25,512 bases of DNA from a virus. The DNA is taken from positions 1 to 25,512 of the IMG/VR virus record IMGVR_UViG_3300028800_000294; one strand, 5' to 3'. A model generated the notes under the pieces. That model was not told the DNA's origin. It saw nothing but the letters and a program-made list of their open reading frames with translations, and did no database searches. The position numbers and the translations under genes are program-made. How positions within the stretch are numbered: the stretch's first letter is position 1; the number at the start of each line of letters is the position of its first letter. Shown here piece after piece: positions 2,713 to 25,193 of the stretch.

Positions 2713-3311
2713 TTGCGCCGCGCCCTTGACCATTGGTCATAGGCGCCAGCGAGAAACCCCGATACGGCACAATCGCGCGAACTCCGCGCTTCTTTCGCTT
2801 CCATCCGGCCAACAGTAATAACGCACGCGCATTGGTGAGCAACAAGGCTCCGTTTCTCAGCGGGGTGACCACTCCCAACTTCGATAATTGCAAGCGCCGA
2901 CAACGTGCGACTGGCATGAAACACTAAGCGGTCATAGACGACCTTAAGTGAACCCTGGTGGTATATAAAAGGAGCATGCGCCTCGAATTCGATCGTCATA
3001 TATTCCAGGCAGTGCAAGAGCAACTCTCGCGCGTCCCAATAGCGATTTCTCGCCGATTCTTGGCGCCGGGGCGGCAAACGTTCGCACTGCTCCCACCGCC
3101 TTAGGAGGACCTCTGATCGATTCAGAAGAGAAGCCAACTCCATAATTCTGATTTTCAAGCCAGAATCCATCGCACTTGTCAACTTTCTATTCGCACGGCA
3201 GAAGTGCAGAAGTTCCCGTATCAATTGATCCATGTGCGGCCGAATATCTTCGGCGTCGTCACCACCGGCACCGGAGTCACCAATGTCTCTATCAGCGCCA
3301 TCAGCAGACAT
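2709..3311 (-). CDS. Hypothetical phage protein
   Basis: 200 aa with no recognised family. The ATG at 3311 has a strong GGAG in AGGGGAGAAGTAA upstream, which supports this start over a later ATG at 3233. The N-terminus is acidic (DGADRDIGDSGAGGDDAED), followed by helical, charged sequence with Arg-rich stretches (about 65-95) and Cys residues scattered through the C-terminal half. The 3' end overlaps the Q-like gene (ATGA). The 5' end overlaps by 29 nt, in antisense, the start of the plus-strand HNH gene. It could be a small DNA-associated protein, but nothing specific can be claimed. Confidence 0.6.
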   Translation of the reverse strand: MSADGADRDIGDSGAGGDDAEDIRPHMDQLIRELLHFCRANRKLTSAMDSGLKIRIMELASLLNRSEVLLRRWEQCERLPPRRQESARNRYWDARELLLHCLEYMTIEFEAHAPFIYHQGSLKVVYDRLVFHASRTLSALAIIEVGSGHPAEKRSLVAHQCACVITVGRMEAKEARSSRDCAVSGFLAGAYDQWSRARRK

Positions 3312-3627
3312 TTACTTCTCCCCTTCCTACCTGCGCGCTCGCAAGATAGCCCTGATCCGCGCGCACTGGCGGTGCGAGGATTGCGGCAAGGGTCCGCACT
3401 GCGGCGTCGACCTTGAAGTCCATCACATCAAGCCTGTCAGCCGGTTCCCTGAACTGGTGGCAGATGAGGCAAACCTGCAGGTGCTCTGTCCTCCATGTCA
3501 CATGGGCGGCCACTGGCTCGAATGGGGCATCAAGCAGAAAGCCGCGAACGATCCGCGCTATCAACTCCCACGACGCAGACAGAGGGAGAGCGAGCAAGTC
3601 CCCGAACAATTGAGGCTGCCGATGTGA
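3283..3627 (+). CDS. HNH endonuclease
   Basis: 114 aa plus-strand gene inside an otherwise minus-strand block. ATG at 3283 is preceded by GGAG at 6-nt spacing. The protein shows a complete HNH core: CEDCG near residue 32, EVHHIKPVSRFPEL (the H-H pair), EANLQVLCPPCH (N and the second zinc Cys pair). The zinc knuckle is CxxC...CxxC and the catalytic His sits in VHHIKP. HNH genes beside terminase genes often assist packaging-site cleavage in cos phages, but many are homing endonucleases. The opposite orientation and the antisense overlap with the 5' end of the neighbour favour an acquired, free-standing element. The family call is firm; the role is open. Confidence 0.88.
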   Translation: MSLSAPSADIYFSPSYLRARKIALIRAHWRCEDCGKGPHCGVDLEVHHIKPVSRFPELVADEANLQVLCPPCHMGGHWLEWGIKQKAANDPRYQLPRRRQRESEQVPEQLRLPM

Positions 3628-7741: not shown

Positions 7742-7981
7742 TCAGATGGCCGCGGGTTCCGGAGATGTGCCGCGGATTACGGCCCAGTCAACGTCGGGGC
7801 GCAGGTCCTCGCATCGAAGACGGCCACCGGTCTCGCGCTCGAGCTCGATCGCGAGCTTCTCCGCGCAGGTACGGTCTCCATAGCTGACATTGCGAAGGTG
7901 GCCGGGTGTGGTGCCGCAGGCTTTTGCGAGCGCCTCCCGTTCTTCCGTGGATAGCGCCGAGAGGTATGTCTTCAAGTCCAT
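7742..7981 (-). CDS. Cro/YdaS-like HTH repressor
   Basis: 79 aa starting MDLKTYLSALSTEEREALAK. The sequence ALAKACGTTPGHLRNVSYGD is a Cro/YdaS-type helix-turn-helix, followed by LAIELERETGG, a family hallmark. It is the first gene of the minus-strand early operon and is divergent from the CI-like gene, so it should act as the lytic-side repressor. ATG 7987 is an alternative start. I favour 7981 because a promoter with TTGATT-17-TGATAT (minus strand) would start transcription at or next to 7981, making the message nearly leaderless. YdaS family members can also act as antitoxin-like proteins, but the operator context favours a Cro role. Confidence 0.8.
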   Translation of the reverse strand: MDLKTYLSALSTEEREALAKACGTTPGHLRNVSYGDRTCAEKLAIELERETGGRLRCEDLRPDVDWAVIRGTSPEPAAI

Positions 7982-7987
7982 GCGCAT

Positions 7988-8016
7988 ATATCACCATACG
8001 GTGATATGTAAATCAA
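7988..8016 (-). promoter_or_regulatory. Putative PR-type promoter for the Cro operon
   Basis: On the minus strand a TTGATT -35 (8016-8011) and a TGATAT -10 (7993-7988) are separated by 17 nt. The spacer and -10 are covered by the first operator palindrome. Transcription would start close to 7981, next to the Cro ATG. Confidence 0.65.
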
Positions 8017-8066: not shown

Positions 8067-8471
8067 GTGGGAATTCAGGACGTTCGGAGACAACGGCTGC
8101 GCGAATGGATTCTGCGTCGCTTCGACGACAATCAGTCGAAGTTTGCGCAGGCGTGCGGGATCAGTCAGCCGCAAATAGCCGATACGCTGGCAGGGCGTAA
8201 ATCATTCGGCGAGAAATTGGTGATGCGCCTGGAGCGCGATGCTCACATTCCGAAGGGCTGGCTCGACGGCGATGACAGTGTCAGCGAACCTACGCTGCTC
8301 TATTACGGCGCGAGCCTTACGCGTGCCGGCGCGCTACTGGCGGCGGAATGGGAGAAGCTCGACGTCGCTGATCGCGCCGAGATTGAATCAGAGATTCACA
8401 TGCGCGTTGCGCGTACGGTGCGCGAGCGCCGATCCCGCGGAAGCCACCACCAGGATCCGCCAGCGGAGTAA
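8067..8471 (+). CDS. CI-like repressor (HTH only, no peptidase domain)
   Basis: 134 aa from GTG 8067. The HTH reads DDNQSKFAQACGISQPQIAD then TLAGRKSFGEKLVMRLE and KGWLDGDD, the typical Cro/CI fold followed by the 'GWLD' element. The remaining ~60 residues contain no LexA/S24 Ser-Lys peptidase motifs, so RecA-triggered self-cleavage is not expected. It is divergent from Cro with three operators in between. No Shine-Dalgarno precedes the GTG; an AATATT element (8058-8063) ends 3 nt before it, so the message could be leaderless, as lambda cI is from PRM. An ATG at 7980 is in frame but lies next to the first operator and is a poor start. Induction would need another mechanism, such as an antirepressor. 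Confidence 0.8.
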   Translation: MGIQDVRRQRLREWILRRFDDNQSKFAQACGISQPQIADTLAGRKSFGEKLVMRLERDAHIPKGWLDGDDSVSEPTLLYYGASLTRAGALLAAEWEKLDVADRAEIESEIHMRVARTVRERRSRGSHHQDPPAE

Positions 8472-8653: not shown

Positions 8654-8665
8654 CGCGCTCTCTAT

Positions 8666-8706
8666 CACCAAAAGGTGTTGACACCTATCACCATCCGGTG
8701 ATACCG
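8666..8706 (+). promoter_or_regulatory. PL-like promoter with two repressor operators
   Basis: Perfect -35 TTGACA at 8678-8683, with a weak -10 (ATACCG at 8701-8706, 17-nt spacer). It lies between CACCAAAAGGTG (8666-8677) and ATCACCATCCGGTGAT (8687-8702). Both operators share the CACC-N4-GGTG core of the switch operators, with centres 23 bp apart. The repressor should therefore silence the whole plus-strand operon, including the DGR, in the lysogen. The first gene downstream is the first DGR target (ATG 8740). Confidence 0.75.
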
Positions 8707-8739: not shown

Positions 8740-9174
8740 ATGCCCGCAAAGCCCAAAGCCCGCTTCGTCAAGATCGGCGAGGACGGCAAGCAGCTGCGCC
8801 TCAATGCCCCCGCCTGGGTCGCGGTCCTCGATCGCGAGACCAGCCTGATCTGGACGCGCGACGATCTTCCGTGCGGCAGCGTCAACTGGAAGGCTGCGAA
8901 GAAAGCCTGCACTGACCTGACGCTCGCCGGCGCCGCCGACTGGCGCCTGCCCACGCGCAAGGAGCTGCTGACCCTCGTCGATGACACGCGCCACTCGCCG
9001 GCGATCGACACGACGTTCTTTCCTGCCTGCAAGTCCGACTGGTACTGGACCAGCACACCCGCGGCGTATTCGCCCGGCGATTACGCGTGGTTCGTCGACT
9101 TCCTCAACGGCAATTCCGACTGGGACAGCCAGAGAAGCGGCTATCACGTCCGCGCCGTGCGCTCCAGTCAGTGA
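8740..9174 (+). CDS. DGR target protein 1 (DUF1566, variable C-terminus)
   Basis: 144 aa. ATG 8740 is chosen because GGAGAG lies about 6 nt upstream; an in-frame ATG at 8698 falls inside the operator/promoter. The body has DUF1566 (Lcl C-terminal, C-type-lectin-like fold) signatures: AVLDRETSLIWTRDD, LTLAGAADWRLPTRKEL, SPAIDTTFF and SDWYWTSTPAAYSPGDYAW. The last 35 codons before the final Gln form variable repeat VR1, and the invariant end VRAVRSSQ closes the fold. No signal peptide or membrane helix is visible, so the product appears cytoplasmic unless exported otherwise. It is the first gene after the PL-like promoter, in an operon of recombination genes. Diversified residues cluster in the FVDFLNGNSDWDSQRSGY stretch, the presumed ligand-binding surface. 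The natural ligand is unknown. Confidence 0.92.
   Translation: MPAKPKARFVKIGEDGKQLRLNAPAWVAVLDRETSLIWTRDDLPCGSVNWKAAKKACTDLTLAGAADWRLPTRKELLTLVDDTRHSPAIDTTFFPACKSDWYWTSTPAAYSPGDYAWFVDFLNGNSDWDSQRSGYHVRAVRSSQ
9064..9168 (+). repeat. DGR variable repeat VR1
   Basis: Aligns without gaps to the template repeat at 13648-13752 over 105 nt. There are 8 differences, all at template adenines (A to G, C or T). The block ends with the shared G+C-rich GTCCGCGCCGTGCGCTCCAG. The next base is C (9169), where the template has G (13753), a candidate IMH/IMH* difference. Confidence 0.97.
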
Positions 9175-9194
9175 TTGGGCTTTTGGGTAGCACC

Positions 9195-9569
9195 ATGAAT
9201 CCAAGTCACTACCACTGTCAGAGCTGCAGCGCCCTCTTCCCGAAGCGCGAGGCGCATTTCCGCACCGAATATGAGACCGGCGAGTTCTGGGGCGAAGTGC
9301 ATACGCGCGCTGTCCAGATCGATCGCTGCAACGCCTGCGGGTCTGAGGAGATCGACGAGGTCAGCCCCTGCGTCGAGTGCCACAAAGCGCTCCCGGCCGA
9401 AGGCACCGACCTGTGCCAACCGTGCCTCGAGCACGTCGAGACCTACTGGGACCGGCGCGTCGCCGAGGCCAAGGTGTCAAAGGTCGCGCGGCTGCGTGCG
9501 ATGCAGTCGTTCCTTGCTGAGATCCAGCGCGAGCCACTCGATGCGTGCGCTGGAGAGGGTGAAGTATGA
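9195..9569 (+). CDS. Multi-CxxC zinc-ribbon protein
   Basis: 124 aa from ATG 9195 (MNPSHYHCQSCSALFPKREA). It has four Cys pairs: CQSC (8-11), CNAC (around 45), CVEC (around 58) and CQPC (around 74). These point to two zinc ribbons, followed by a helical tail (VETYWDRRVAEAKVSKVARL). It starts 20 nt after DGR target 1 and ends in a 4-nt ATGA overlap with the next gene. Proteins with a short zinc-ribbon head and helical tail are frequent in phage early operons and often have unknown partners, typically nucleic acid or RNA polymerase. Confidence 0.78.
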   Translation: MNPSHYHCQSCSALFPKREAHFRTEYETGEFWGEVHTRAVQIDRCNACGSEEIDEVSPCVECHKALPAEGTDLCQPCLEHVETYWDRRVAEAKVSKVARLRAMQSFLAEIQREPLDACAGEGEV

Positions 9570-9769
9570 GCACCGACCCATCCTTCGCGACTCGTCAGAC
9601 CTCCTCGCAGATCACGATGCAGGTGAAGCTCAAGGCGCTCGAGCTTTTCACAGGCTCGCCCCTGACGCCCACCCAGGAAGAACTGCGCCAGCTGATCGAA
9701 TTGGCCATATCGACCGGCGTCGATATCGGACTGCGGGCCGCTGGCGAATTGGCAAGGGCGCTGCCATGA
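9566..9769 (+). CDS. Small hypothetical phage protein
   Basis: 67 aa from ATG 9566, overlapping the upstream stop by 4 nt. Helical: QVKLKALELFTGSPLTPTQE then LRQLIELAISTGVDIGLRAA. No motif recognised. It is coupled to its neighbours on both sides, so it is a normal operon member. Confidence 0.68.
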   Translation: MSTDPSFATRQTSSQITMQVKLKALELFTGSPLTPTQEELRQLIELAISTGVDIGLRAAGELARALP

Positions 9770-9924
9770 GCGAGTCCATCGAGGGAGCGTACGCCACGGT
9801 CCTGATCCTACTGGCGATCGTGAGCGCGCTTACCTGGATCATCAGCAGCGTCTGGCCGAAGAAGCGCGAGCCGCTGCCGCCACCTAACAATTTGTGCAAT
9901 CGCGATTACCGGAGATCCAGATGA
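9766..9924 (+). CDS. Small single-span membrane protein
   Basis: 52 aa from ATG 9766 (overlaps the upstream TGA). One hydrophobic helix (YATVLILLAIVSALTWIISSV), then WPKKREPLPPP, a basic and proline-rich tail. Its stop overlaps the ATG of DGR target 2 (ATGA at 9921-9924), so target 2 is translationally coupled to it. That physical link makes it a candidate membrane partner for the target, but this is inference. Confidence 0.7.
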   Translation: MSESIEGAYATVLILLAIVSALTWIISSVWPKKREPLPPPNNLCNRDYRRSR

Positions 9925-10439
9925 ACTCACTTGCCAGCGATATTCGAGCGCTGATCGCGCGCCGCGTCGAGGCCGCGCCGGCGTCCTATATTCTTAGCAT
10001 AGCCAGCAACCTCTGCGCGGCCGAGATACTGCCGTCACTCAATCCGGCGCCGCTGGATACCGGCGAGCGCTTCGCGCTGATCGGCGATGACATCGTGGCT
10101 GATCGCACCACGGGACTGAGCTGGTCGCGCGGGAACGTCGGCACCGAGCCCATGATCTGGTCAGCGGGTGCAAACGTCTGCAAAGTGCTCTATCTCGGAG
10201 GTTTCACCGATTGGCGGCTGCCGACGGTGCGCGAGCTGCTCACGCTCGTCGACTACGAGCGCCACGAGCCGGCGATCGATCCGATTTTCCGGTGCGTTCC
10301 CAGCTACTACTGGACCAGCACACCCGCGGCGTGTTCGCCCGGCGATTACGCGTGGCTCGTCGGCTTCGGCGACGGCTATTCCGACTGGTACGGCCGGAGA
10401 GGCGTCTATCACGTCCGCGCCGTGCGCTCCAGTCAGTGA
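9921..10439 (+). CDS. DGR target protein 2 (DUF1566, variable C-terminus)
   Basis: 172 aa, ATG 9921 with GGAG 6 nt upstream, coupled to the small membrane gene. An extra N-terminal region of about 50 residues (MNSLASDIRALIARRVEAAP ...) is not present in the other two targets and could be a helical adaptor. The DUF1566 core follows: DDIVADRTTGLSWSRGN, FTDWRLPTVRELLTLV, EPAIDPIF, then SYYWTSTPAACSPGDYAW and the variable block ending VRAVRSSQ. The VR differs from the template at 15 adenines. A Cys replaces the usual Tyr early in the block. No signal peptide. The most divergent target body of the three. Confidence 0.92.
   Translation: MNSLASDIRALIARRVEAAPASYILSIASNLCAAEILPSLNPAPLDTGERFALIGDDIVADRTTGLSWSRGNVGTEPMIWSAGANVCKVLYLGGFTDWRLPTVRELLTLVDYERHEPAIDPIFRCVPSYYWTSTPAACSPGDYAWLVGFGDGYSDWYGRRGVYHVRAVRSSQ
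10329..10433 (+). repeat. DGR variable repeat VR2
   Basis: 105 nt aligned without gaps to the template at 13648-13752; 15 differences, all at template adenines. The base after the block is C (10434) where the template has G. Confidence 0.97.
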
Positions 10440-10461
10440 TTTTGGCCTATAGGAGAATTCA

Positions 10462-11196
10462 ATGAGCGCAGAGACAGCGGTGGCAATGCGGCCCGACGCG
10501 CCGGCCGAAGCCACCTCCATGATCCAGGTGATCGAGCGCGTGGCGCTCAATCCACACGTCGACATCGACAAGATGCAGCGGCTGCTCGATATGCAGGAGC
10601 GCATCATGGCGCGCACCGCGAAGGCATCCTATGCCGCGGCGCTCTCTCAGCTGCAGCCCGAACTGCCGATCGTGGCCGAGCGTGGCTCGATCAAGAACGG
10701 CTCGGGGAACGTCCAGAGCAAGTACGCGCTCTGGGAGGACGTCGTCACCGCGATCGTGCCGGTGCTCGCGCGTCATGGCTTCAGCCTATCGTTCCGGACC
10801 GCGAATGACGACAAGGGCGTCACGGTCACCGGCGTGCTCTCGCACTCGGCGGGGCACAGCGAAGAAACGAGTCTCAAGCTTCCGATCGACACGTCGGGCT
10901 CAAAGAATGCCGTGCAGTCGGTCGGTTCGAGCACTTCCTATGGCAAGCGCTACATCGCCGCCGCTCTGCTGAACCTGCGCACTGGCGACATTGACGATGA
11001 CGGCCGCAAAGGTGGCGACAAGGGGGGCGAATGCATCAGCGAGCGCCAGGTGGCAGATATAAATGCGCTGATCCAGGAGGTCGGTGCCGATAAGGCGCGG
11101 TTCCTGCGCTACATCAAAGCCGACCGGCTCGAGGACATTCTGGCGGTCAATTACAGCACCGTCGTCAGACAGATCGAAGCGAAGAGGAAGCGGTAA
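10462..11196 (+). CDS. ERF-family single-strand annealing protein
   Basis: 244 aa, ATG 10462 with AGGAG about 7 nt upstream. The recombinase core spans residues ~25-180: a helical start, then SYAAALSQLQPELPIVAERG, SKYALWEDVVTAIVPVLARH, FSLSFRTANDD and the family hallmark SVGSSTSYGKRYIAAALLNL (residues ~152-171). ERF proteins anneal complementary strands during phage recombination and circularisation. It is paired with the YqaJ exonuclease that follows (1-nt overlap), the equivalent of lambda Bet-Exo. The C-terminal segment (SERQVADINALIQEVGAD) is an ordinary tail. Confidence 0.92.
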   Translation: MSAETAVAMRPDAPAEATSMIQVIERVALNPHVDIDKMQRLLDMQERIMARTAKASYAAALSQLQPELPIVAERGSIKNGSGNVQSKYALWEDVVTAIVPVLARHGFSLSFRTANDDKGVTVTGVLSHSAGHSEETSLKLPIDTSGSKNAVQSVGSSTSYGKRYIAAALLNLRTGDIDDDGRKGGDKGGECISERQVADINALIQEVGADKARFLRYIKADRLEDILAVNYSTVVRQIEAKRKR

Positions 11197-11840
11197 TGGA
11201 ACAGCCTGAGTCAGCGCCCCAACTCAGCGAGCAATGGTTCGCCGCCCGGCTCGGCTGCGTCACAGCCTCCCGCATGGGAGATCTGATGGCGAAGACCAAG
11301 AGCGGCTATGGCGCATCGCGCGAGAATTACATGGCCGAGCTCATCGCCGAACGGCTGACCGGCACGCGCCAGGAGCGATTCGAGAATGCGGCCATGAAAT
11401 GGGGCGTCGAGACGGAAGCACAGGCTCGGATCGCCTACGAGTTCCTGCAGGATGTGACGGTCGAACAGGCCGGCTTCATCCCGCATCCGGCATTGACCTA
11501 TGCCGGCGCGTCTCCGGACGGCCTGGTCGGCGCTGAAGGCCTGGTCGAGATTAAGTGCCCGAACACCGCCATGCACATCGACACGCTGCTCTCCAGCACG
11601 ATCGCTGCGAAGTACGTGTATCAGATGCAATGGCAGATGGCCTGCACCGGTCGCAAGTGGTGCGACTTCTTCTCTTTCGATCCGCGCATGCCAGCATCGA
11701 TGCAGGTGTTCCAGAAGCGCGTATCCCGCGACCCCGCTCTGATCGATGAGCTCGAGCGCGAGGTCAGGACTTTCCTCGAGGAGCTCGCGCGCAAGGTGAT
11801 GGCGCTGACCGCCAAGTATGAGACCGCGCAAGCCGCATGA
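11196..11840 (+). CDS. YqaJ/lambda Exo-like recombination exonuclease
   Basis: 214 aa, start overlapping the ERF stop (TAATG). Family motifs are clear: EQWFAARLGCVTASRMGDLM at the N-terminus, MKWGVETEAQARIAYEF, YAGASPDGLVG (SPDG around residue 107) and GLVEIKCPNT (ExK around residue 117), plus YQMQWQMACTG. These are the PD-(D/E)xK catalytic residues of lambda-Exo-type enzymes. It degrades the 5' strand to make 3' single strands for ERF. Length is normal and no damage is seen. Confidence 0.95.
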   Translation: MEQPESAPQLSEQWFAARLGCVTASRMGDLMAKTKSGYGASRENYMAELIAERLTGTRQERFENAAMKWGVETEAQARIAYEFLQDVTVEQAGFIPHPALTYAGASPDGLVGAEGLVEIKCPNTAMHIDTLLSSTIAAKYVYQMQWQMACTGRKWCDFFSFDPRMPASMQVFQKRVSRDPALIDELEREVRTFLEELARKVMALTAKYETAQAA

Positions 11841-12010
11841 GCCAGGGGCTTCGAAATCTGACGCCCCAGCAGCGCGCCGAGCTGAAGGCGGCACTCTTGG
11901 AACGATACCGGATGCGCACGCAGTACACGCTCAAGGCTCTGGTGCGCCGGTTCGGTGTGCATATCGATGCCATCCGGCGCTTCGAGCAACGCGAGGGGCT
12001 GCGGGAATGA
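11837..12010 (+). CDS. Small HTH-like phage protein
   Basis: 57 aa from ATG 11837 (ATGA overlap with the exonuclease). After LTPQQRAELKAALLERYRMR comes TLKALVRRFGVHIDAIRRFE, which has the spacing of a helix-turn-helix: the A-L-V-R-R-F-G-V turn resembles 'tvReLArrfGVS' repressor elements. The stop overlaps the next ATG. Likely a small DNA-binding protein. Confidence 0.68.
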   Translation: MSQGLRNLTPQQRAELKAALLERYRMRTQYTLKALVRRFGVHIDAIRRFEQREGLRE

Positions 12011-12483
12011 AAGTCTGGCTCAAACGCACCGCCTTCGGTCTGATTCCTGACAACGAGGAATCCGCGCAGCAGCTCGCCAAGATCAAGCCGGACACGACGA
12101 TCGAGTGCGAGGTTGTCCTGAGAAAAGCGCGCTCGCTTGCCTTCCACCGCCGCTATTGGGCGCTCCTCAAGCTGCTCTCTGAGAACGTCGAGCGCGTGAA
12201 CATCGCGACGACCGAGCTGGATGAGTGGTGGATGGTGATCAACGACGTCCAGGACATGCACGAGGCGATGAAGTATCTGACCGGTTTCTACGATCGGCAG
12301 GTGTTCCGATACAAGGAGAAAACGCTGATCGCCCTCAAGACACGCTCGATCGCCTTCGATGCGATGGACGCTGAGCAGTTCGCACTGTATTGGAAGAAGG
12401 TCACCGATGCCGTCTTTCAGCGGGTGCTTCCTGGAGTCGATTCATTTGCGCTCGAGGAAGAGGTTGCGAGGCTGGCCTCATGA
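12007..12483 (+). CDS. DUF1367-like phage protein
   Basis: 158 aa from ATG 12007 (ATGA overlap). It shows the family pattern: MKVWLKRTAFGLIPDNEESA, then TTIECEVVLRKARSLAFHRR and YWALLKLLSENVE. These match the RN-x-x-FHRKFFALL type signature of DUF1367, which is common in proteobacterial prophage recombination operons. The C-terminus (MDAEQFALYWKKVTDAVFQR) is also typical. The family's function is unknown; its neighbours suggest recombination or DNA processing. Confidence 0.75.
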   Translation: MKVWLKRTAFGLIPDNEESAQQLAKIKPDTTIECEVVLRKARSLAFHRRYWALLKLLSENVERVNIATTELDEWWMVINDVQDMHEAMKYLTGFYDRQVFRYKEKTLIALKTRSIAFDAMDAEQFALYWKKVTDAVFQRVLPGVDSFALEEEVARLAS

Positions 12484-12704
12484 GCTTCGAGGATCTCAAC
12501 GACACCAACGAAGCGCACGAGCGTCGGATCGTCCGGTGCCGCTCCTGCCGCGCAAAGATCATCTGGTTCAAGACCGCAGCCGGCAAGAATATGCCGGTGG
12601 ATGCGGACACGGTTGAGCCTGACGACGACGAGCTCGACCTCGAGCGGCACGTGTCGCACTTCGCGACGTGTCCGCAAGCAGATTCTTTCCGCCGCAAAAC
12701 CTGA
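12480..12704 (+). CDS. Small zinc-binding phage protein
   Basis: 74 aa from ATG 12480 (ATGA overlap). It contains CRSC (20-23), then IIWFKTAAGKNMPVDAD, an acidic stretch, and HVSHFATC with a second Cys/His set. This is a recurring proteobacterial phage module in which the two halves of one zinc site are split by an acidic loop. It is directly upstream of DGR target 3, with a normal Shine-Dalgarno for the latter. Function unknown. Confidence 0.75.
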   Translation: MSFEDLNDTNEAHERRIVRCRSCRAKIIWFKTAAGKNMPVDADTVEPDDDELDLERHVSHFATCPQADSFRRKT

Positions 12705-12715
12705 AGGAGCACTCG

Positions 12716-13135
12716 ATGGGAGCCAGATTTACGAAGATCGGAACGGACGGCGCGGAGCTGCCAGAGGACGCAACGCAATGGGTCGCGGTTCGCGACAGCA
12801 CCAGCGACCTCATATGGTCGGTCGAGGAGGTCAAGAAGCCGCTGACATGGAAGAAGTCGATCGAATGGGCGAAGAAGCTCACCGTCGCCGGCTTCACGGA
12901 CTGGCGGCTGCCGACGGTCGAGGAGCTGTTCCTCCTGGCCGACCGCACGCGCCACTCGCCGGCGATCGACACGACGTTCTTCCCAGACTGCAAGTCCGAC
13001 TGGTATTGGACCTCGACGCCCGCCGCGTATTCGCCCGGCGTTTGCGCGTGGTTCGTCGACTTCGGCGGCGGCGGTTCCGGCTGGGGCAGCCAGAGGCACG
13101 ACTGTCACGTCCGCGCCGTGCGCTCCAGTCAGTAA
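12716..13135 (+). CDS. DGR target protein 3 (DUF1566, variable C-terminus)
   Basis: 139 aa, ATG 12716 with AAGGAG 6 nt upstream; an in-frame ATG at 12668 lacks that. DUF1566 signatures: QWVAVRDSTSDLIWSVEE, TVAGFTDWRLPTVEELFLL, SPAIDTTFFPDCKSDWYWTS, then the variable block and VRAVRSSQ. VR3 is the most diverged of the three (17 adenine changes) and is strongly Gly-rich (FGGGGSGWGSQRHDCH). It shares a 36-nt identical run with target 1 (8985-9020 versus 12946-12981), so the two probably arose by duplication or exchange. It is the target nearest the Avd-TR-RT cassette, the usual position of the cognate target. No signal peptide. Confidence 0.92.
   Translation: MGARFTKIGTDGAELPEDATQWVAVRDSTSDLIWSVEEVKKPLTWKKSIEWAKKLTVAGFTDWRLPTVEELFLLADRTRHSPAIDTTFFPDCKSDWYWTSTPAAYSPGVCAWFVDFGGGGSGWGSQRHDCHVRAVRSSQ
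13025..13129 (+). repeat. DGR variable repeat VR3
   Basis: 105 nt aligned without gaps to the template at 13648-13752; 17 differences, all at template adenines. The base after the block is C (13130) where the template has G. Confidence 0.97.
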
Positions 13136-13156: not shown

Positions 13157-13591
13157 ATGGGCTATCAGCTTCCTGAGATCGTGAAAGCCGCGGAGCGAAT
13201 ACTTGTGGAAGTCGAGAAGGCCGTCCGGGCCTTCCCCCGATATCACAAGTATGCGCATGGCGCGCGGCTACGCGATCAAGCGATGGCTGTGGCCCAGGCA
13301 GCGCACCGCGCCTGGCGCGATCGTGCGCACCAAGTCGTAGCCATCGAGCGACTGAGCGATGCAATCGATGATATGAAGATCTCGCTCCAGCTGGGCAAGC
13401 AGATCGAGGCATTCGCCAGTTTCGCGCAGTTCGAAATGCTCGCGCGGCTGGTCTCAGAATTAGGACGGCAGTGTGGAGGGTGGCGGAGGCAGAAGCGCCG
13501 CAGAGGCCAGAATGCGATTGAGCCGAGCGCATCTTCGCAGCGCGCCCAGGTACTGAGTTCCCGCGACGCCTCCTCCGAGGCATATTCATGA
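13157..13591 (+). CDS. avd: DGR accessory variability determinant (Avd-like)
   Basis: 144 aa from ATG 13157. Avd proteins form pentameric four-helix barrels that bind the reverse transcriptase and the template RNA. The sequence fits: LPEIVKAAERILVEVEKAVR, FPRYHKYAHGARLRDQAMAV, a third helix with SDAIDDMKISLQLGKQIEAF, and FEMLARLVSELGRQCGGWRR, the typical end. A basic tail of about 35 residues (RRQKRRRGQNAIE ...) extends beyond the usual length. It starts 21 nt after target 3 and its stop overlaps the RT ATG at 13588 (ATGA). Position between VR3 and TR/RT is canonical. Strong call from pattern and context. Confidence 0.9.
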   Translation: MGYQLPEIVKAAERILVEVEKAVRAFPRYHKYAHGARLRDQAMAVAQAAHRAWRDRAHQVVAIERLSDAIDDMKISLQLGKQIEAFASFAQFEMLARLVSELGRQCGGWRRQKRRRGQNAIEPSASSQRAQVLSSRDASSEAYS

Positions 13592-14922
13592 CGAGCCCGC
13601 GCTACCTGAGAGGCTGTGCGGGCGAGTCCAAAGCGCGCGGGATAATGGCGTATTCGCCCGGCGATTACGCGTGGATCGTCGACTTCAACAACGGCAATTC
13701 CAACTGGAACAACCAGAGAAACGACTATCACGTCCGCGCCGTGCGCTCCAGTGAGTATCACGGCGTTCCGAGCTTTCGTTCCCTCCACGCTGCCTGGCGC
13801 GAAGCACGCCGCGGCAAGAAACCCAGTCCGAATCAGATGGACTTCGAGAGCCTCTGGCTCGACGGGCTGCTCGAGTTGCAGGGGCTCCTCGAGGCCGGGA
13901 CCTGGTCGCCGAAGCCGACCATCTGCTTCATCGCGAAACAGCCCAAGGCGCGCGAGATCCACGCGCCGGACTTCTCCGATCGCATCGTGCACCACTGGCT
14001 CGTGCCGCAGCTCGAGGCGATCTACGAGCCCGCTTTCGTCTTCGATAGCTATTCGAACCGCATCGGAAAGGGCACGCACGCGGCGGTCGAACGCCTGCAG
14101 GCTTTCGTCCGCCAGGTGCCGGGCGGATGGTATCTGCAGCTCGATATCGCGAACTTCTTCAATTCGATCCATCGACCGACTCTCTGGGGAATGCTCAGGC
14201 GACGGATGGAGCGCTTTGCTGTGCCCCTCACGACGCAGCAGGCGACGCATGCGCTGCTGCGGCACTCGCCGGCCGACCAGGGCGTGCGCTATGCCTGCAC
14301 GGCCGCCGAACGCACCGCGGTGCCGGCGCACAAGCGCCTGGAGAACGCTGCACCAGGCTGCGGGATCGCTATCGGCAACCTTTCGAGCCAGTTCTTCGCG
14401 AACGTCTATCTGGATGCGCTCGATCAGTTCGTGAAGCACGAGCTGCGCGCGCCGCGGTATCTGCGTTACGTCGATGACTTCGTGCTGATCGATCGAAGGC
14501 GTGAGCAGCTCGAGGCGGCGCAGGCCTCGATCGAGCGCTTCCTGGCCGAGAGGCTTCGCCTGAAGCTGAAGGCAGACATAAAGCTTCGGCCGGTTTCCGC
14601 CGGCGTCGACTTCTTGGGTTACGTCGTTTTTCCGACGCATACAGTCGTGCGCCGGCGCGTCATCGGTCACGCGCGAGCGAAACTTGCGGCCTGGGAGAGC
14701 CAGCACATATCGAATGGTGCGATCCGGGCGACGCCCGTCCAGCTGCGCGAACTCCAGTCCGTGGCAGCGAGCTATGAGGGCCACTTCAGACATGCGAACT
14801 CGTACCGATTGAGGCAGCGGATCAGGAGGCGCTTTCCATGGCTGGAGGCCGCACTCTTACCGCGGGATGCGGCGTGGCATGAGGATCACCTTTCGATTTC
14901 CATTCGTGGGGTATGGCAATGA
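13588..14922 (+). CDS. DGR reverse transcriptase (template repeat in its N-terminus)
   Basis: 444 aa from ATG 13588, which overlaps the avd stop (ATGA) with GAGG about 7 nt upstream. Residues 21-55 are encoded by the template repeat itself. The RT proper begins near residue 62 (SFRSLHAAWREARRGKKPSP). Motif A is LQLDIANFFNS with Asp186, motif C is YVDD (294-297), and GIAIGNLSSQ (259-268) is the DGR-type motif 4 that differs from the QGxxxSP of group II introns and retrons. FLGYVVFP (342-349) fits the downstream RT element. It copies TR RNA into cDNA with adenine-specific errors. Later starts (ATG 13645, GTG 13741, ATG 13837) lack a Shine-Dalgarno, so how much of the TR peptide is made is uncertain. 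Confidence 0.96.
   Translation: MTSPRYLRGCAGESKARGIMAYSPGDYAWIVDFNNGNSNWNNQRNDYHVRAVRSSEYHGVPSFRSLHAAWREARRGKKPSPNQMDFESLWLDGLLELQGLLEAGTWSPKPTICFIAKQPKAREIHAPDFSDRIVHHWLVPQLEAIYEPAFVFDSYSNRIGKGTHAAVERLQAFVRQVPGGWYLQLDIANFFNSIHRPTLWGMLRRRMERFAVPLTTQQATHALLRHSPADQGVRYACTAAERTAVPAHKRLENAAPGCGIAIGNLSSQFFANVYLDALDQFVKHELRAPRYLRYVDDFVLIDRRREQLEAAQASIERFLAERLRLKLKADIKLRPVSAGVDFLGYVVFPTHTVVRRRVIGHARAKLAAWESQHISNGAIRATPVQLRELQSVAASYEGHFRHANSYRLRQRIRRRFPWLEAALLPRDAAWHEDHLSISIRGVWQ
13648..13752 (+). repeat. DGR template repeat TR
   Basis: 105-nt template, homologous to VR1-3 and ending in the shared G+C-rich GTCCGCGCCGTGCGCTCCAG. It holds 26 adenines, including seven Asn codons (AAC/AAT) placed at the diversified positions. 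It lies in the RT reading frame and in the same codon frame as the VRs. The base after it is G (13753) where all VRs have C, so the VR stop context is absent and translation continues into the RT. Confidence 0.97.
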
Positions 14923-15799: not shown

Positions 15800-16155
15800 G
15801 CACGCTGACAATCGAGCAGGCGGCCGAGCTCGCCCATTGCCATCCGGACACGATGCGCAAGCTGATGAAGACCAGGGCTGCCCCGGGTGCAAAGATTGGG
15901 CGCCGGTGGGTAGTATCCGCCGAACTATTCCAAGAATGGCTGGACCAGCAATGCCGCTCTACCGCCGTCCTGGCTCCGACAACTGGTGGGTCCGCATATC
16001 CGTCGCTGGCCGAAAGAATCGCCGCTCAACCGGCACATCCGACCGGCAGCAGGCGGAAGAATTCGAACGCGTCGAACGCGACCGCCTCTGGCGGCTCTAC
16101 AAGCTCGGCGACCGTGGTGCCGTTCTCTGGAAAGAGGTCGCAACGCGATGGCTGA
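15796..16155 (+). CDS. xis: Excisionase-type HTH protein
   Basis: 119 aa from GTG 15796 (GTGA overlap). Residues 1-53 are a MerR/HTH_17-type winged helix: TIEQAAELAHCHPDTMRKLM, then GAKIGRRWVVSAELFQEWLD. That is the usual excisionase and recombination-directionality fold. The remaining 66 residues are Ser/Thr/Ala-rich and lie entirely over the start of int in another frame, so they may be a dispensable tail. Immediately upstream of int, as in most phage xis-int modules. Other HTH-type small regulators are possible. Confidence 0.75.
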   Translation: MSTLTIEQAAELAHCHPDTMRKLMKTRAAPGAKIGRRWVVSAELFQEWLDQQCRSTAVLAPTTGGSAYPSLAERIAAQPAHPTGSRRKNSNASNATASGGSTSSATVVPFSGKRSQRDG

Positions 16156-16973
16156 CAGACAGCGACCGGGCGCGATCCCGGGACCGGGAGATTGTGAAAT
16201 GGCTATCTCGATATCTGGACAACGATCCGGTGCGGGCCGTAGACGAGACTGCGATCGAGGCGCTGCGCCAGAAGGCGCTGGCTGGCGGCATGAGCCGCTC
16301 CACGGTCGATCGCTTCATGAACACACTGCGGGCGATCCTGCGCAAATGCGTGGAATGGCGTTACCTGGAAGCTCTACCGAAGATCCCGATGTATCGGCCC
16401 AGGGCACCGGAACCGCGCTGGCTGACGCCAGAGGAGTTTTCCAGGCTTCGGGCGCAGCTACCAGCGCACCTGCAGCTGGCAGCGGACCTGGCCGTCCAGA
16501 CGGGGCTGAGAATGCGCTCCATGCTGTCTCTGCGCTGGGAGCGGATCGATCTGAAGGCGCGCCGGGCATGGATCCCAGGCGAGCAGATGAAGGCAGGCAG
16601 GGCTCACGGCATCCCGCTCTCGCCGGCCGCCGTACGGACGTTGCGCGCGCTCAGGCGCCTGAATCCGGAAGGATCGGCCGTGTTCCAGTGGAACGGGAAA
16701 GCGATCGACAACTGCCACACCAAGGCCTTCAGGAAGGCCGTGGAGGCCGCCGGGCTGGTGCCGCTACGATGGCACGATCTGCGGCACACCTTCGCCTCCT
16801 GGGCCGTCCAGAGCGGCGTCACGCTGCAGGAGTTGATGCAGCTCGGGGGCTGGTCAAGCTACGTAATGGTGCTGCGTTACGGGCATCTGGCGCCGGACCA
16901 ATTGGCCTCGGCGGCTGCCAAGGTGGGCACGTTCGGGGCACAGAAGAAACGGCGCCGACGGGCCGCTGCCTGA
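15951..16973 (+). CDS. int: Tyrosine-type phage integrase
   Basis: 340 aa from ATG 15951 (MPLYRRPGSDNWWVRIS); earlier in-frame codons to 15723 overlap other genes. An N-terminal arm-binding-like domain and core-binding helices (about 60-150) precede the catalytic domain. Catalytic residues: Arg187 (QTGLRMRSM), His275 and Arg278 (WHDLRHTFASW), Trp301 (GGWSS) and nucleophile Tyr310 (LRYGHL). Carboxy end QKKRRRRAAA. It integrates and excises the genome, reading towards the tRNA-Val attP core that starts 27 nt downstream. Overlaps xis by 205 nt. Confidence 0.95.
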   Translation: MPLYRRPGSDNWWVRISVAGRKNRRSTGTSDRQQAEEFERVERDRLWRLYKLGDRGAVLWKEVATRWLTDSDRARSRDREIVKWLSRYLDNDPVRAVDETAIEALRQKALAGGMSRSTVDRFMNTLRAILRKCVEWRYLEALPKIPMYRPRAPEPRWLTPEEFSRLRAQLPAHLQLAADLAVQTGLRMRSMLSLRWERIDLKARRAWIPGEQMKAGRAHGIPLSPAAVRTLRALRRLNPEGSAVFQWNGKAIDNCHTKAFRKAVEAAGLVPLRWHDLRHTFASWAVQSGVTLQELMQLGGWSSYVMVLRYGHLAPDQLASAAAKVGTFGAQKKRRRRAAA

Positions 16974-16975
16974 AA

Positions 16976-16991
16976 TGTTCCACGTGGAACA
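16976..16991. promoter_or_regulatory. parS-like 16-bp palindrome
   Basis: TGTTCCACGTGGAACA is a perfect palindrome, 3 nt after the int stop and 9 nt before the tRNA core. It agrees with the bacterial chromosomal ParB-binding consensus TGTTnCACGTGnAACA. No T-run follows, so it is not an ordinary terminator. Confidence 0.75.
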
Positions 16992-16999
16992 AAGGCTTA

Positions 17000-17053
17000 T
17001 GGTGGGTGCTGAGGGACTCGAACCCCCGACATTCGCCGTGTAAAGACGAGCGT
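17000..17053 (-). other. attP: attP core: 3' part of a tRNA-Val(UAC) gene
   Basis: On the minus strand this is the 3' half of a tRNA, from the anticodon stem to CCA. It has a TTTACAC anticodon loop (anticodon UAC, Val), a stem TCGTC/GGCGA, a T-arm GGGGG-TTCGAGT-CCCTC, and the acceptor AGCACCC followed by ACCA. The 5' half (D arm and 5' acceptor) is absent. Phage integrases commonly use tRNA 3' ends, and the fragment is next to int. It is therefore the core of attP, not a functional tRNA. Confidence 0.85.
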
Positions 17054-17063
17054 TTCAAGGGAT

Positions 17064-17133
17064 TTCAAGCACTTGGGACAGTCAGACCAGGCCAAAACAG
17101 GCCACATTCTGGCACGTTCAAGCACATTCTGGG
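17064..17133. repeat. Integrase arm-type direct repeats
   Basis: TTCAAGCAC occurs at 17064-17072 and 17117-17125, with TTTCAAGG just before the first copy. CACATTCTGG occurs at 17103-17112 and again at 17123-17132. Short direct repeats beside an attP core are typical integrase/Xis arm sites. Confidence 0.6.
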
Positions 17134-17536
17134 CACAGCGCTGATCTGTCTGTTACTGGCGGGCTGCGCAGAGCTTTCGACCGAGACGAAAGTCGAGGAA
17201 GGGCTATTTCAGCTCAGCAACGCCGTCGATACGGCGCAGACGATCGCCGCTCAGCGTGAGGGGTGTTACGTCGAGAGTGGGGAACTAGGCCTCACCGGCC
17301 CGCACCCGAGCTCAGCTGCGATCGTTGGCTATCAGCTGGCCTTCGGCCTGGTGCACCTTGGCATCACCGAGCTGCTGCAGCGCTACGTGCATACGCCATG
17401 GATCGAAACCGCCTGGCAGATCAGCTCGATCGGTTATGACTTGACGGGGCCTGTCGGCAGCTACTGGCAGTTCGGCGGCAGGATGTTCCCAAATCGCGAA
17501 GCTGATGCCAAGCGTGGGTGCGTGGGTCGGCCATGA
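17126..17536 (+). CDS. Small lipoprotein without a clear start codon
   Basis: About 136 aa, translated from the ATT at 17126 for reporting. A signal peptide with lipobox is plain: FKHILGTALICLLLAGCAEL, cleaved before Cys. The mature part (ELSTETKVEEGLFQLSNAVD, then GYQLAFGLVHLGITELLQRY and IETAWQISSIGYDLTGPVGS) is of unknown function. No ATG, GTG or TTG with a Shine-Dalgarno lies close upstream in frame; the next candidate is a GTG at 17006 inside the tRNA core. The start is therefore unusual (ATT or CTG at 17126-17131). It is just across attP from int and its stop overlaps the next ATG. It could be a lysogenic-conversion lipoprotein. Confidence 0.6.
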   Translation: MLGTALICLLLAGCAELSTETKVEEGLFQLSNAVDTAQTIAAQREGCYVESGELGLTGPHPSSAAIVGYQLAFGLVHLGITELLQRYVHTPWIETAWQISSIGYDLTGPVGSYWQFGGRMFPNREADAKRGCVGRP

Positions 17537-17814
17537 ACAGCGCCGCGGTTACAACGCGTTCCGCCGCCGCAGGCGAGGCGCTGAACGCCTGCCCGCAGTG
17601 CGGCGCCGTCTTTATTCGTCGCCGCCCACATCAAGAGTTCTGCGCCGCCAAATGCCGCTCAGCCTATCACGCTGACCATGGCATCGAAGGGACGGTAAAC
17701 CGTCTGCAGCGGGTCAAGGGGGGGGTATCGCTAGCGATCAGGCTTGAGGGTCCAGCGGCCGAAGCAGCCATAAAGCTGCAGCTGCATGAGAGGGTGCGCG
17801 TGGTGAAGCTATGA
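17533..17814 (+). CDS. Small zinc-finger phage protein
   Basis: 93 aa from ATG 17533 (ATGA overlap with the lipoprotein). Zinc site: CPQCGAVFIRRRPHQEFCAA then KCRSAYH, giving CxxC ... CxxxC. It ends in a strand-rich part (GGVSLAIRLEGPAAEAAIKL). Similar 'CPxCG ... QxFCSxxCR' proteins are common in prophages as uncharacterised small genes. Its stop overlaps the next ATG. Confidence 0.72.
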   Translation: MNSAAVTTRSAAAGEALNACPQCGAVFIRRRPHQEFCAAKCRSAYHADHGIEGTVNRLQRVKGGVSLAIRLEGPAAEAAIKLQLHERVRVVKL

Positions 17815-17990
17815 GCATGGCGCGCGAGTTGCTAGACGAGGCGTGCGAGCTACTGAAGGCCCACGTGCTCGATGCTTGCGCCGAGGATCAGGACACGTGC
17901 TTTGAGGGCGCGGACTGCACCTGTGCCAAGGTGTGCCAGTTCCTCACGCGCGCGGCCGGCTCCCCTGAAGAAACCAGCGCGGCCAGGTAA
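17811..17990 (+). CDS. Small Cys-rich protein
   Basis: 59 aa from ATG 17811 (ATGA overlap). MSMARELLDEACELLKAHVL is helical, followed by DACAEDQDTC and EGADCTCAKVCQFL, with six Cys in total. Codon usage and coupling support it, but it overlaps by about 100 nt, in antisense, the reading frame at 17888-18076. Both may be real. Confidence 0.5.
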   Translation: MSMARELLDEACELLKAHVLDACAEDQDTCFEGADCTCAKVCQFLTRAAGSPEETSAAR

Positions 17991-18076
17991 TCGTCGAAAC
18001 GCTCGACGACTTCGGTCTTGGGGCCGCCATGCAGAAAGCCCCAAACCTCGCGCAGCTCCTCGAGTGTGAGATTCAC
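17888..18076 (-). CDS. Small hypothetical protein after the spanin gene
   Basis: 62 aa from GTG 18076, which overlaps the Rz stop (GTGA). It opens with LTLEELREVWGFLHGGPKTE and RFDDYLAALVSSGE, acidic and helical. The 3' half is antisense to the Cys-rich gene 17811-17990. The coupling makes it a candidate last gene of the lysis operon, but one of the two overlapping frames may be spurious. Confidence 0.5.
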   Translation of the reverse strand: MNLTLEELREVWGFLHGGPKTEVVERFDDYLAALVSSGEPAARVRNWHTLAQVQSAPSKHVS

Positions 18077-18555
18077 GGCGCTACGGGCTGCTGCTGGAAA
18101 CGCCGATATCTGATAGCCAGCTCTGCAGCGCTTTGCAGGAGGGTTCGCTGTTCGGGGCCGACGTCGATGGCCTCTCTTGCGCTTCCTCCCAGCACTTCGG
18201 GAACAGAAGCGGGTCCGGTCCCGGCACCAGCTGGTCCGGTGGCGGCTGCGGGGGCGCTGGGCAGTCCCTGGCCGCTATGACTCGCGGGCTGCTTGCACAC
18301 GAGCACAGCACCAACGGGATGAGCAGCCATATAAGCGTTGAGGCTTTGCGTTGCATCGAGTTTCTCCTTATCGGCAGCGCTCGCAAGGCCCCGCAGTCGC
18401 GCTGCCTCGACGGTGGCGTCTGTGTGCGCCTTGTTGAGCGCGGTGGCATCGGTGAGCAGGATCTGGTTGATCCGCCCCTGGTCGATCTCGTGCGTGATCC
18501 AGGCAGCGCCTATGGCGCCGATTACGACCATCGCGATCAGTACATATGGATTCAT
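18073..18555 (-). CDS. Inner-membrane spanin (Rz-like)
   Basis: 160 aa from ATG 18555 with GGGGGAA upstream. A single N-terminal hydrophobic helix (YVLIAMVVIGAIGAAWIT) anchors it, followed by a long helical, charged region (NKAHTDATVEAARLRGLASA, SAADKEKLDATQSLNAYM) suited to a coiled coil. It is immediately after the holin-like gene (4-nt overlap). A second frame inside it encodes the Rz1-like lipoprotein, the diagnostic arrangement. It disrupts the outer membrane together with Rz1. Confidence 0.82.
   Translation of the reverse strand: MNPYVLIAMVVIGAIGAAWITHEIDQGRINQILLTDATALNKAHTDATVEAARLRGLASAADKEKLDATQSLNAYMAAHPVGAVLVCKQPASHSGQGLPSAPAAATGPAGAGTGPASVPEVLGGSAREAIDVGPEQRTLLQSAAELAIRYRRFQQQPVAP
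18081..18356 (-). CDS. Nested outer-membrane spanin lipoprotein (Rz1-like)
   Basis: 91 aa from ATG 18356, with TAAGGAG upstream, entirely inside the Rz frame. MQRKASTLIWLLIPLVLCSC is a lipoprotein signal with lipobox L-C-S-C, and the mature part is Pro-rich (CPAPPQPPPDQLVPGPD) as in Rz1. The embedded +1-type frame and the features are those of lambda Rz1. The earlier in-frame ATG at 18449 would put the signal in the middle of the protein and is rejected. Confidence 0.85.
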   Translation of the reverse strand: MQRKASTLIWLLIPLVLCSCASSPRVIAARDCPAPPQPPPDQLVPGPDPLLFPKCWEEAQERPSTSAPNSEPSCKALQSWLSDIGVSSSSP

Positions 18556-18827
18556 GGCTTTCCCCCGTTCTGCTGAGCCGTCCAGTCGCGGCCGTTCTCG
18601 CTATAGATCTTGAAGATCCATGGCGAGAAGCCCGCAATGGCCGTGAATACCACGCTCACGACGGCGCTTTCCTCAGCCCCTCGAGCCGTCGCCGGCTCAT
18701 GGGTGTACCAGACGAGCAAGTACATCGTGACGTGGTAGACGAACCATCCATAGACGGCCAGGATCAATCGCGGCACGACGCGCCAGCTATCGAATAGCTC
18801 AGCCCACTTTAGCCACGTCTCCTTCAC
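18552..18827 (-). CDS. Holin-like membrane protein
   Basis: 91 aa. Two hydrophobic helices: RLILAVYGWFVYHVTMYLLV and ESAVVSVVFTAIAGFSPWIF, with a charged N-terminus (MKETWLKWAELFDSWR) and a polar tail (YSENGRDWTAQQNGGKP). Located between the small TM gene and the spanins, overlapping both by 4 nt. A two-helix holin of the S21/T-type class is the likely role. It is the best holin candidate in the cassette. Confidence 0.7.
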   Translation of the reverse strand: MKETWLKWAELFDSWRVVPRLILAVYGWFVYHVTMYLLVWYTHEPATARGAEESAVVSVVFTAIAGFSPWIFKIYSENGRDWTAQQNGGKP

Positions 18828-19012
18828 AGTCTCACGACCGCCAGCGTTGCCAGGGTGCCAAAGACCAGGCCGGCCAGACCGCAGATCACCGAGATCTTCA
18901 GATTCGCATCGATCTTCGCTTCGAGCGCCGAGACGTACTCGACGCCATCGGCCCTGAGCGTCGCGAGCTCCGCGGCCGCCTTCACCTTCAGTGCACTGAG
19001 AATGTTGCTCAT
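18824..19012 (-). CDS. Small single-span protein of the lysis cassette
   Basis: 62 aa from ATG 19012 with AAGGAG upstream. A helical segment (ILSALKVKAAAELATLRADG) is followed by a C-terminal membrane helix (ISVICGLAGLVFGTLATLAV). It could be an antiholin, a second holin or a spanin-associated helper. Overlaps neighbours by 4 nt on both sides. Confidence 0.65.
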   Translation of the reverse strand: MSNILSALKVKAAAELATLRADGVEYVSALEAKIDANLKISVICGLAGLVFGTLATLAVVRL

Positions 19013-19224
19013 CGCTTCTGCTCCTTGGATTGAGTGTCGGAAAACCTGAAACGCTGAATGATGCTGTCGGTCCAGCTGGTCGGCTTGACCTCGAAGCCGT
19101 CCTCGTCGAGCGGCTTGACCATCAACGCCGGGTGTTGTGTCTCGACCTGGCTTGGCTGCACGCGCCCGAGCATCCGGTCGCGGCGCAGTTCCTCCTGGCG
19201 CGCCTGCCACTCCCAGAAGTCCAT
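19009..19224 (-). CDS. Hypothetical protein of the lysis cassette
   Basis: 71 aa. MDFWEWQARQEELRRDRMLG is strongly charged and helical, followed by a polar C-terminal half with no motif. Starts at the endolysin stop region (overlap at 19224) and ends with a 4-nt overlap. Function unknown. Confidence 0.65.
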   Translation of the reverse strand: MDFWEWQARQEELRRDRMLGRVQPSQVETQHPALMVKPLDEDGFEVKPTSWTDSIIQRFRFSDTQSKEQKR

Positions 19225-19691
19225 CAGGCCAGTTCCGCGCCGGCTTCCTGAGCTGGTCCGATGTCGACGATTGATCCAGGAAGGCCCACGTCACTCGCCA
19301 CCTGGTGGACGTAGTTCTCGGTCTCCAGCGGCAGTGCGCGCTGGCCCTTGAGCCACATGTCGATGTTGCCGCCGCCGTCGTTGTAGGCCGCTACCGCGAC
19401 CTGCCAGTCCTGAAAGCGCTCATGCAGACCGGAGAGCAGCCGCGCCGCGGTTTCAATGTCCGCCAGCCAGCTTGCTCCGGCACCTGGAAAGTCTGACGGT
19501 TCGAGCTGCATCAGCCCGACCGCGCCAGCAGGAGACCGCACCGCGCCGCTCACGATGTCGAATCGGAAATGGCTCTCCTGGTAGGCGATCCGGGCGAGTA
19601 AGTCGAGCGGGATGCCATGCCGGATCTCGGCCGCATGAAGCGCCGGCAGGTAGACCGGTGCGTTCGGAGCGTTCTTCCAGTTGATGTTCAT
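19224..19691 (-). CDS. Endolysin, lytic transglycosylase (SLT-like)
   Basis: 155 aa. Catalytic Glu39 in AYQESHF (36-42), then GAVGLMQLEP (57-65) and AVAAYNDGGGNI (99-110). These three motifs define the SLT/lysozyme-like transglycosylase fold. Cuts peptidoglycan glycan strands at the end of infection. No signal peptide, so it needs the holin. The stop is followed by the 19009-19224 gene, and the start overlaps the 19688-19906 stop. A tail-associated lytic enzyme is a less likely alternative because the gene lies in the lysis cluster. Confidence 0.88.
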   Translation of the reverse strand: MNINWKNAPNAPVYLPALHAAEIRHGIPLDLLARIAYQESHFRFDIVSGAVRSPAGAVGLMQLEPSDFPGAGASWLADIETAARLLSGLHERFQDWQVAVAAYNDGGGNIDMWLKGQRALPLETENYVHQVASDVGLPGSIVDIGPAQEAGAELA

Positions 19692-25191: not shown

Positions 25192-25193
25192 GC

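Follow-up and report, generated by a model that had tools for sequence, protein, structure and literature searches.

Three hypervariable lectin-fold proteins of a phage retroelement are encoded in an early operon and not with the tail genes

The stretch of DNA analysed here (the window) comprises 25,512 bases and is the entire virus record IMGVR_UViG_3300028800_000294, which is linear in IMG/VR. It carries one diversity-generating retroelement (DGR), consisting of a template repeat (TR), the accessory protein Avd, a reverse transcriptase (RT) and three target genes (T1 to T3) that bear variable repeats (VRs). The original prediction that the diversified proteins are not encoded with the tail was confirmed, with all three targets being situated in an early operon opposite the tail genes. 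This genome organisation lends good support to a departure from receptor tropism, although it does not prove it. The targets are interpreted here, with slightly more confidence than doubt, as early intracellular binding proteins directed against a varying factor of the host or of a rival phage, most likely in counter-defence. This interpretation follows from the clade-wide placement in the early operon, the tail genes on the opposite strand, the palindromes described below and the sharing of targets across different virion modules. The retroelement and the tail-tip gene are arranged as follows:

8740-9174, plus strand: T1, first gene of the operon, DUF1566/Lcl_C protein (PF07603, E 5.4e-34) with its VR at the 3' end
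9063-9172, plus strand: VR1, 9 mismatches to the TR, 8 of them at A
9921-10439, plus strand: T2, DUF1566/Lcl_C protein (PF07603, E 2.3e-26) with a two-helix N-terminal module (residues 1-34)
10328-10437, plus strand: VR2, 16 mismatches to the TR, 15 of them at A
12716-13135, plus strand: T3, DUF1566/Lcl_C protein (PF07603, E 5.7e-30)
13024-13133, plus strand: VR3, 19 mismatches to the TR, 17 of them at A
13157-13591, plus strand: Avd accessory protein (PHROG Avd, E 1e-14; Pfam bAvd, E 1.4e-6, under the curated cut-off)
13588-14922, plus strand: DGR reverse transcriptase (PF00078, E 1e-14; phrog_1423, E 5e-96)
13647-13756, plus strand: TR, nested in the RT reading frame and sharing the frame of the VRs
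20661-24764, minus strand: tail-tip protein Phage-tail_3 (PF13550, E 8.8e-37), without a VR

Summed over the three VRs, TR adenines hold 40 of the 44 mismatches, and the remaining ones are G>C changes, three of which share one base at the 3' end. As adenine makes up 27 of the 110 TR bases, such a bias would be expected by chance with a probability of about 1e-19 (binomial, hand calculation). The assignment to the DGRs is based on these adenine-directed TR/VR pairs, on the DGR-type RT and Avd beside the TR and on the position of the VRs at the 3' ends of genes with a C-type lectin (CLec) fold. The range of 8740-13135 given originally is correct for the targets, but the full system reaches 14922 and its control region starts at about 7988. 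A TR overlapping the RT gene is a feature of a known DGR class (PMC3521204). The lectin C-terminal segment is seemingly translated in unmutated form as part of the RT, at its N-terminus, and TR and VR share the frame in 198 of 199 pairs having the TR inside the RT throughout the clade. Avd and RT genes overlap by 4 nucleotides in 58 of 89 loci. An AlphaFold2 model of the RT, aimed at the role of the translated TR, was poor (predicted local distance difference test, pLDDT, of 52; shallow alignment).

The lysis and tail genes of the window are located on the strand opposite the early operon, and the tail-tip protein was rightly described as lacking a VR, with all VRs lying in T1 to T3. For comparison, RT-based scans yielded 80 viral and 54 bacterial-genome loci, close loci being those with about 50% RT identity or more, and 95 loci remained once duplicates and distant loci had been removed. 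In the 43 long records, all Lcl_C matches fall in the DGR region. The PF13550 tail tip was found in 18 of these records, in all 18 on the opposite strand and at least about 8 kb from the DGR region, with circular records allowed for. A target encoded with tail genes, as in the phage BPP-1, was encountered neither in the window nor in these records. Neither the records nor the controls contained a match to the tube family PF17212, which is therefore uninformative. The virion types of the clade include a contractile sheath (one record), a P22-type portal (two records) and the PF13550 tail tip (others), which implies that the same DGR is at work in phages of different virion types. Moreover, two records (G036 and G037) share T1 (87% identity), a T3-type target (89%), Avd (94%), RT (95%) and YqaJ (95%), with their portal, terminase, major head and tail-fibre genes being unrelated.

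The position of the targets among early genes, as originally proposed, likewise held. The plus-strand operon includes T1, T2, ERF, YqaJ, DUF1367, T3, Avd, RT, a DnaJ protein and an integrase, and is preceded by a putative control region:

7742-7987, minus strand: YdaS/Cro-like helix-turn-helix gene, divergent from the repressor gene (Pfam YdaS_toxin, E 1.5e-9)
7989-8006, no strand: operator-like palindrome TATCACC-ATAC-GGTGATA in the gap between cro and repressor genes, exact
8067-8471, plus strand: putative repressor with helix-turn-helix-like sequence, assigned by position and sequence
8663-8680, no strand: third, degenerate copy of the palindrome with 2 mismatches, assigned by sequence
8686-8703, no strand: second perfect copy of the palindrome, exact, 36 nucleotides before the T1 start
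10462-11196, plus strand: ERF single-stranded DNA-annealing protein (PF04404, E 3.9e-17)
11196-11840, plus strand: YqaJ exonuclease (PF09588, E 5e-27)
15951-16973, plus strand: tyrosine integrase, end of the operon (PF00589, E 3e-27)

The core ATCACC-N4-GGTGAT occurs at exactly two sites of the window, with 0.01 being expected. The operator-like palindrome before the first gene as well as the recombination genes (ERF, YqaJ) and the integrase gene within the operon agree with a lambda PL-type operon. Since an exact palindrome is common to the cro/repressor region and the stretch upstream of T1, T1 would most simply head a PL-like operon under repressor control. This arrangement also bears on the earlier suggestion of an exclusion factor, here taken to mean exclusion or immunity proteins that are expressed in the lysogen and bind components of incoming phages, with the DGR providing the repertoire of the lysogen population. 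T1 indeed lies just downstream of the repressor gene, which is the place of rexAB in lambda, and many carriers are prophages in bacterial genomes. Targets of cellular DGRs have furthermore been proposed as antigen sensors (PMC10907252). Nevertheless, repression during lysogeny is to be expected from the palindrome upstream of T1 and from the fact that the targets share their operon with recombination genes and integrase, and no constitutive promoter was seen in a consensus scan, which renders a lysogen-expressed function improbable.

The close loci derive mostly from phages and prophages of Lysobacterales, including the genera Stenotrophomonas, Xanthomonas, Dyella, Rhodanobacter, Lysobacter, Arenimonas, Luteimonas and Pseudoxanthomonas. 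Own gene calling combined with profile searches revealed one to three small targets per locus. Within the 95 non-redundant loci, 203 of 204 targets are located upstream of the RT gene and on its strand, Avd immediately precedes RT in 89 loci, a recombinase gene follows downstream in 54, and only a single locus features a same-strand gene of at least 700 amino acids upstream. A VR was present in 236 of 242 targets, and TR adenines hold 3117 of the 3231 mismatches (96.5%) in these 236 targets. The recurring gene order is CI, target, small genes, RecT/YqaJ/RdgC, target, target, Avd, RT, a methylase or ParB-like gene and integrase. The interval between RT and integrase often contains C5 DNA methylases, ParB-like proteins or a HerA-like ATPase, which are typical accessory early genes (e.g., L074:11921-13786, L063:11353-13329, L070:12560-14200, L044:14302-16026).

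In 23 loci, the divergent control region of the repressor was compared with the stretch before the first target by a paired-palindrome search, which replaced a search for the longest common word that was too blunt for degenerate palindromes. In five lineages, the cI/cro palindrome is repeated before the first target, and none of 100 shuffles reached the score. All five palindromes are different: ATCACC..GGTGAT in the window, TACAG..CTGTA in L051, TGTAAG..CTTACA in L060, TTAAAC..GTTTAA in L085 and GAAACC..GGTTTC in L113. Such independent palindromes at the same two places, as far as can be judged from sequence, would be hard to explain except by a repressor control of the first target.

The targets themselves are small proteins of 144 (T1), 172 (T2) and 139 (T3) amino acids, which match PF07603 with 117.4, 92.8 and 104.4 bits, respectively, compared to a curated cut-off of 34.9. 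No other Pfam domain was matched in any of them, and consequently no tail-docking or structural domain. Likewise, they feature no transmembrane segment and no hydrophobic stretch of signal-peptide strength, the maximum Kyte-Doolittle values (19-residue span) amounting to 0.53, 1.27 and 0.71. Hydropathy and Pfam results thus agree with the original description of proteins without signal peptide, membrane helix or tail-type domain. The check was sensitive, as the cell-encoded outgroup targets of L140, L143, L149, L152, L155, L161 and L167 score as signal-peptide-like. The absence of such signals was nonetheless rejected as a means of discriminating between cytoplasm and virion, and fails as an argument for intracellular action, because virion and tail proteins also lack them. 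The outgroup loci just named, together with L157, are distant and apparently cell-encoded DGRs, whose targets of 169-183 amino acids have a signal-peptide-like or strongly hydrophobic N-terminus and adjoin the RT gene, downstream of it with the exception of L161. Some of these systems also include a protein of more than 1000 amino acids ending in the same domain.

The extra N-terminal helix region ascribed to T2 was recovered in an AlphaFold2 model based on 73 further sequences (mean pLDDT 91), which consists of two helices (residues 2-18 and 21-33; pLDDT of about 88-94 for residues 1-20), a less certain linker and a lectin-like domain. A sequence search of T2 against the PDB gave no match, but the fold search succeeded: the closest solved fold is the C-terminal domain of the Legionella adhesin Lcl (8q4e, Foldseek E 1.2e-4), followed by Bdellovibrio Bd2740 and C-type lectins. 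Lcl belongs to the same Pfam family. Because Lcl forms trimers and its N-terminal region is helical (PMC11162425), it is a reasonable inference by analogy that the phage targets may be trimeric as well. Unlike the phage proteins, which have neither collagen repeat nor export signal, Lcl is an extracellular collagen-like adhesin. No proteins other than targets were found to bear T2-type N-terminal modules as docking modules. For T3, no homologues were found in the annotated phage collection at 1e-5; a query with the RT gave distant ones. The longer targets of the clade (e.g., L064:8401-9078, L080:8978-9538, L100:8371-8919, L113:8854-9540) have short, phage-specific N-terminal extensions, either helical or beginning with beta-like segments, which look like modules swapped before a constant lectin domain.

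Directly upstream of T2, one further gene had been proposed as its partner:

9766-9924, plus strand: protein of 52 amino acids with a single transmembrane segment (maximum hydropathy 2.35), not conserved

The idea that T2 acts at the envelope in complex with this product could appeal to its one strong hydrophobic segment and to the motif ATGA, which joins its stop codon to the T2 start. The overlap is real, but the coupling derived from it is unspecific, as 10 of the 14 junctions of the operon overlap by 1-4 nucleotides. In addition, no homologue of the product could be detected across about 170 related loci, ten of which (two identical) contain the T2 N-terminal module without it, and in one locus (L015) the T2 homologue is instead preceded by another target. 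The membrane-protein partner was rejected on these grounds, and an envelope-acting factor is scarcely credible. Consequently, of the two sites of action considered originally, the host interior is backed by the comparison and the link to the envelope fails.

In close pairs of targets, 9-13 of the last 41 residues, i.e., the VR end, differ, and the rest differs by a few per cent. The ratio of non-synonymous to synonymous substitution rates (dN/dS) outside the VR shows a median of 0.23 (44 pairs), from which it follows that the scaffold is kept; at the VR end, it amounts to 3.5. A decaying or unused DGR without current function could be seen in one target of L111 (G052 46805-47158), which is placed outside the main pattern on the strand opposite the RT, contains one in-frame TGA and is probably a decaying copy. 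For the clade, this explanation is very unlikely in view of open reading frames, purifying selection outside the VR, as shown by the low dN/dS, and recent VR divergence in close relatives. In another record (G010, L033:11250-12507), three weak Lcl_C-like genes occur in tandem, and no RT homologue was found in this record.

Several observations weigh against an early intracellular function. The VR-end dN/dS is mostly the result of adenine-directed mutation of AAC codons and no proof of selection. The repressor gene has no Pfam match and no sigma-70 promoter passed the consensus scan. Within the palindrome test, 18 of the 23 loci were negative or without a suitable pair of regions, and the temperate Burkholderia phage Magia showed no common palindrome in the stretch tested. 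PADLOC gave no match in T1 to T3, with its families mostly covering defence and not anti-defence. Furthermore, G036 and G037 both encode a large endolysin-like, possibly virion-borne protein with 45-52% identity. Among predicted viral structures, the T2 fold is found in stand-alone DUF1566 proteins and in portions of large tail-type proteins, and DUF1566/CLec domains are indeed present in some large phage tail-type proteins.

Part of this evidence would fit virion accessory proteins, which are made early but carried on the particle (at the tail tip, a fibre or the capsid surface) as trimeric Mtd-like lectin adaptors, so that the DGR would still switch the binding of receptors or surfaces. Mtd of BPP-1, the phage DGR target whose function is proven, is a separate lectin protein and a receptor-binding part of the virion, and a missing signal peptide fits virion proteins equally. 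According to Roux et al. (2021), phage DGR targets mostly serve host attachment and those of viral clades 1, 4, and 6 are mostly placed in tails, the role of targets in the mixed clade 3 being less clear (PMC8144416). Similarly, the authors describing Magia pointed to the shortness of its two targets and considered adaptation or a change of host range (PMC7883833). Still, the targets belong to an early, repressor-controlled operon that runs opposite the tail wherever a tail tip was found, they lack a tail-docking domain, and near-identical targets occur beside mostly unrelated virion genes in a clade spanning several virion types. A location on the virion is the leading alternative, but is regarded as unlikely.

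Comparison with known systems reveals a close parallel in Magia (MT701587, PMC7883833). Like the window, it is temperate and encodes Cro and repressor first, followed by small lectin-fold targets (genes 57 and 47), which are split by RecT and nuclease genes, and then Avd, RT and integrase; unlike the window, it has two targets of 126 and 120 amino acids, and its RT is 38% identical. As in Magia, the isolated phages Haboob, Cruim01 and LPPA56 feature a similar early or integrase-side layout, whereas in phiWae15 large genes directly precede the DGR. BPP-1 (mtd-avd-TR-brt) shares RT, Avd and TR as well as an adenine-directed VR, which occupies the 3' end of a gene with a C-type lectin fold. In contrast to its single 381-amino-acid virion protein, which docks on tail fibres (PMC10743442), the window encodes three early-operon proteins of 139-172 amino acids without a docking domain, and the RTs are about 32% identical. 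Several targets per DGR, small CLec targets and a target form carrying an additional helical motif at its N-terminus are likewise known from the two-target DGRs of nd4/nd12 (PMC10743442) and Faecalibacterium prophages (PMC11792537), although their targets belong to other families (DUF6273, Ig-like or Mtd-like) and are presumed to be structural. Clade-5 DGRs of multicellular bacteria possess CLec targets, several of them predicted to be cytoplasmic and proposed as antigen sensors in conflict (PMC10907252). These are, however, cell-encoded and fused to or beside NACHT, MoxR or vWA systems, whereas the targets of the window are free-standing proteins of a phage early operon. No DGR class situated in an early operon under repressor control was described in the searched literature, with most subscription journals lying outside the search.

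Regarding the remaining features of the window, the integrase gene is internal, between the early and the lysis/tail genes, and the terminase gene at the far left is directed outwards. With this arrangement (1-1471, 15951-25512), the record resembles part of a phage genome that is circular or permuted, and not an integrated prophage with host flanks. An HNH-like gene (3232-3627, on the strand opposite its neighbours) and a GIY-YIG-like gene (1511-2107) were assigned from sequence only. Rfam and tRNA scans of the window returned nothing.

For the early intracellular function preferred here, the following course may be proposed. Once repression ends upon infection or induction, transcription would begin with T1 and proceed through T2, the recombination genes, T3, Avd and RT. 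The last two products would then copy the TR, making errors directed at adenines, and in phage DNA undergoing replication the complementary DNA would take the place of the 3'-terminal VRs of all three targets, giving rise to progeny with new variants. Made early and remaining in the cytoplasm, the targets would act by binding a varying factor of the host or of a rival phage, most likely by neutralising defence proteins. The DGR thus probably helps the phage to act within its host cell rather than to choose its host. More tentatively, and with doubt still prevailing, a widespread class of temperate phages might use targeted hypermutation to evolve early binding proteins against varying host defences within the cell, as a phage-encoded, self-renewing counter-defence repertoire instead of a tropism switch. 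As the carriers include prophages of sequenced isolates and several isolated phages, these proposals are directly testable. The usual view of phage DGRs is that they switch the host range. A clade of more than 90 loci, whose diversified proteins are encoded in an early operon under putative repressor control, away from the tail, and are common to phages differing in virion genes, indicates that this view does not hold in general. Should the targets act on defence, the retroelement would represent a directed-evolution system operating within the arms race of phage and cell.

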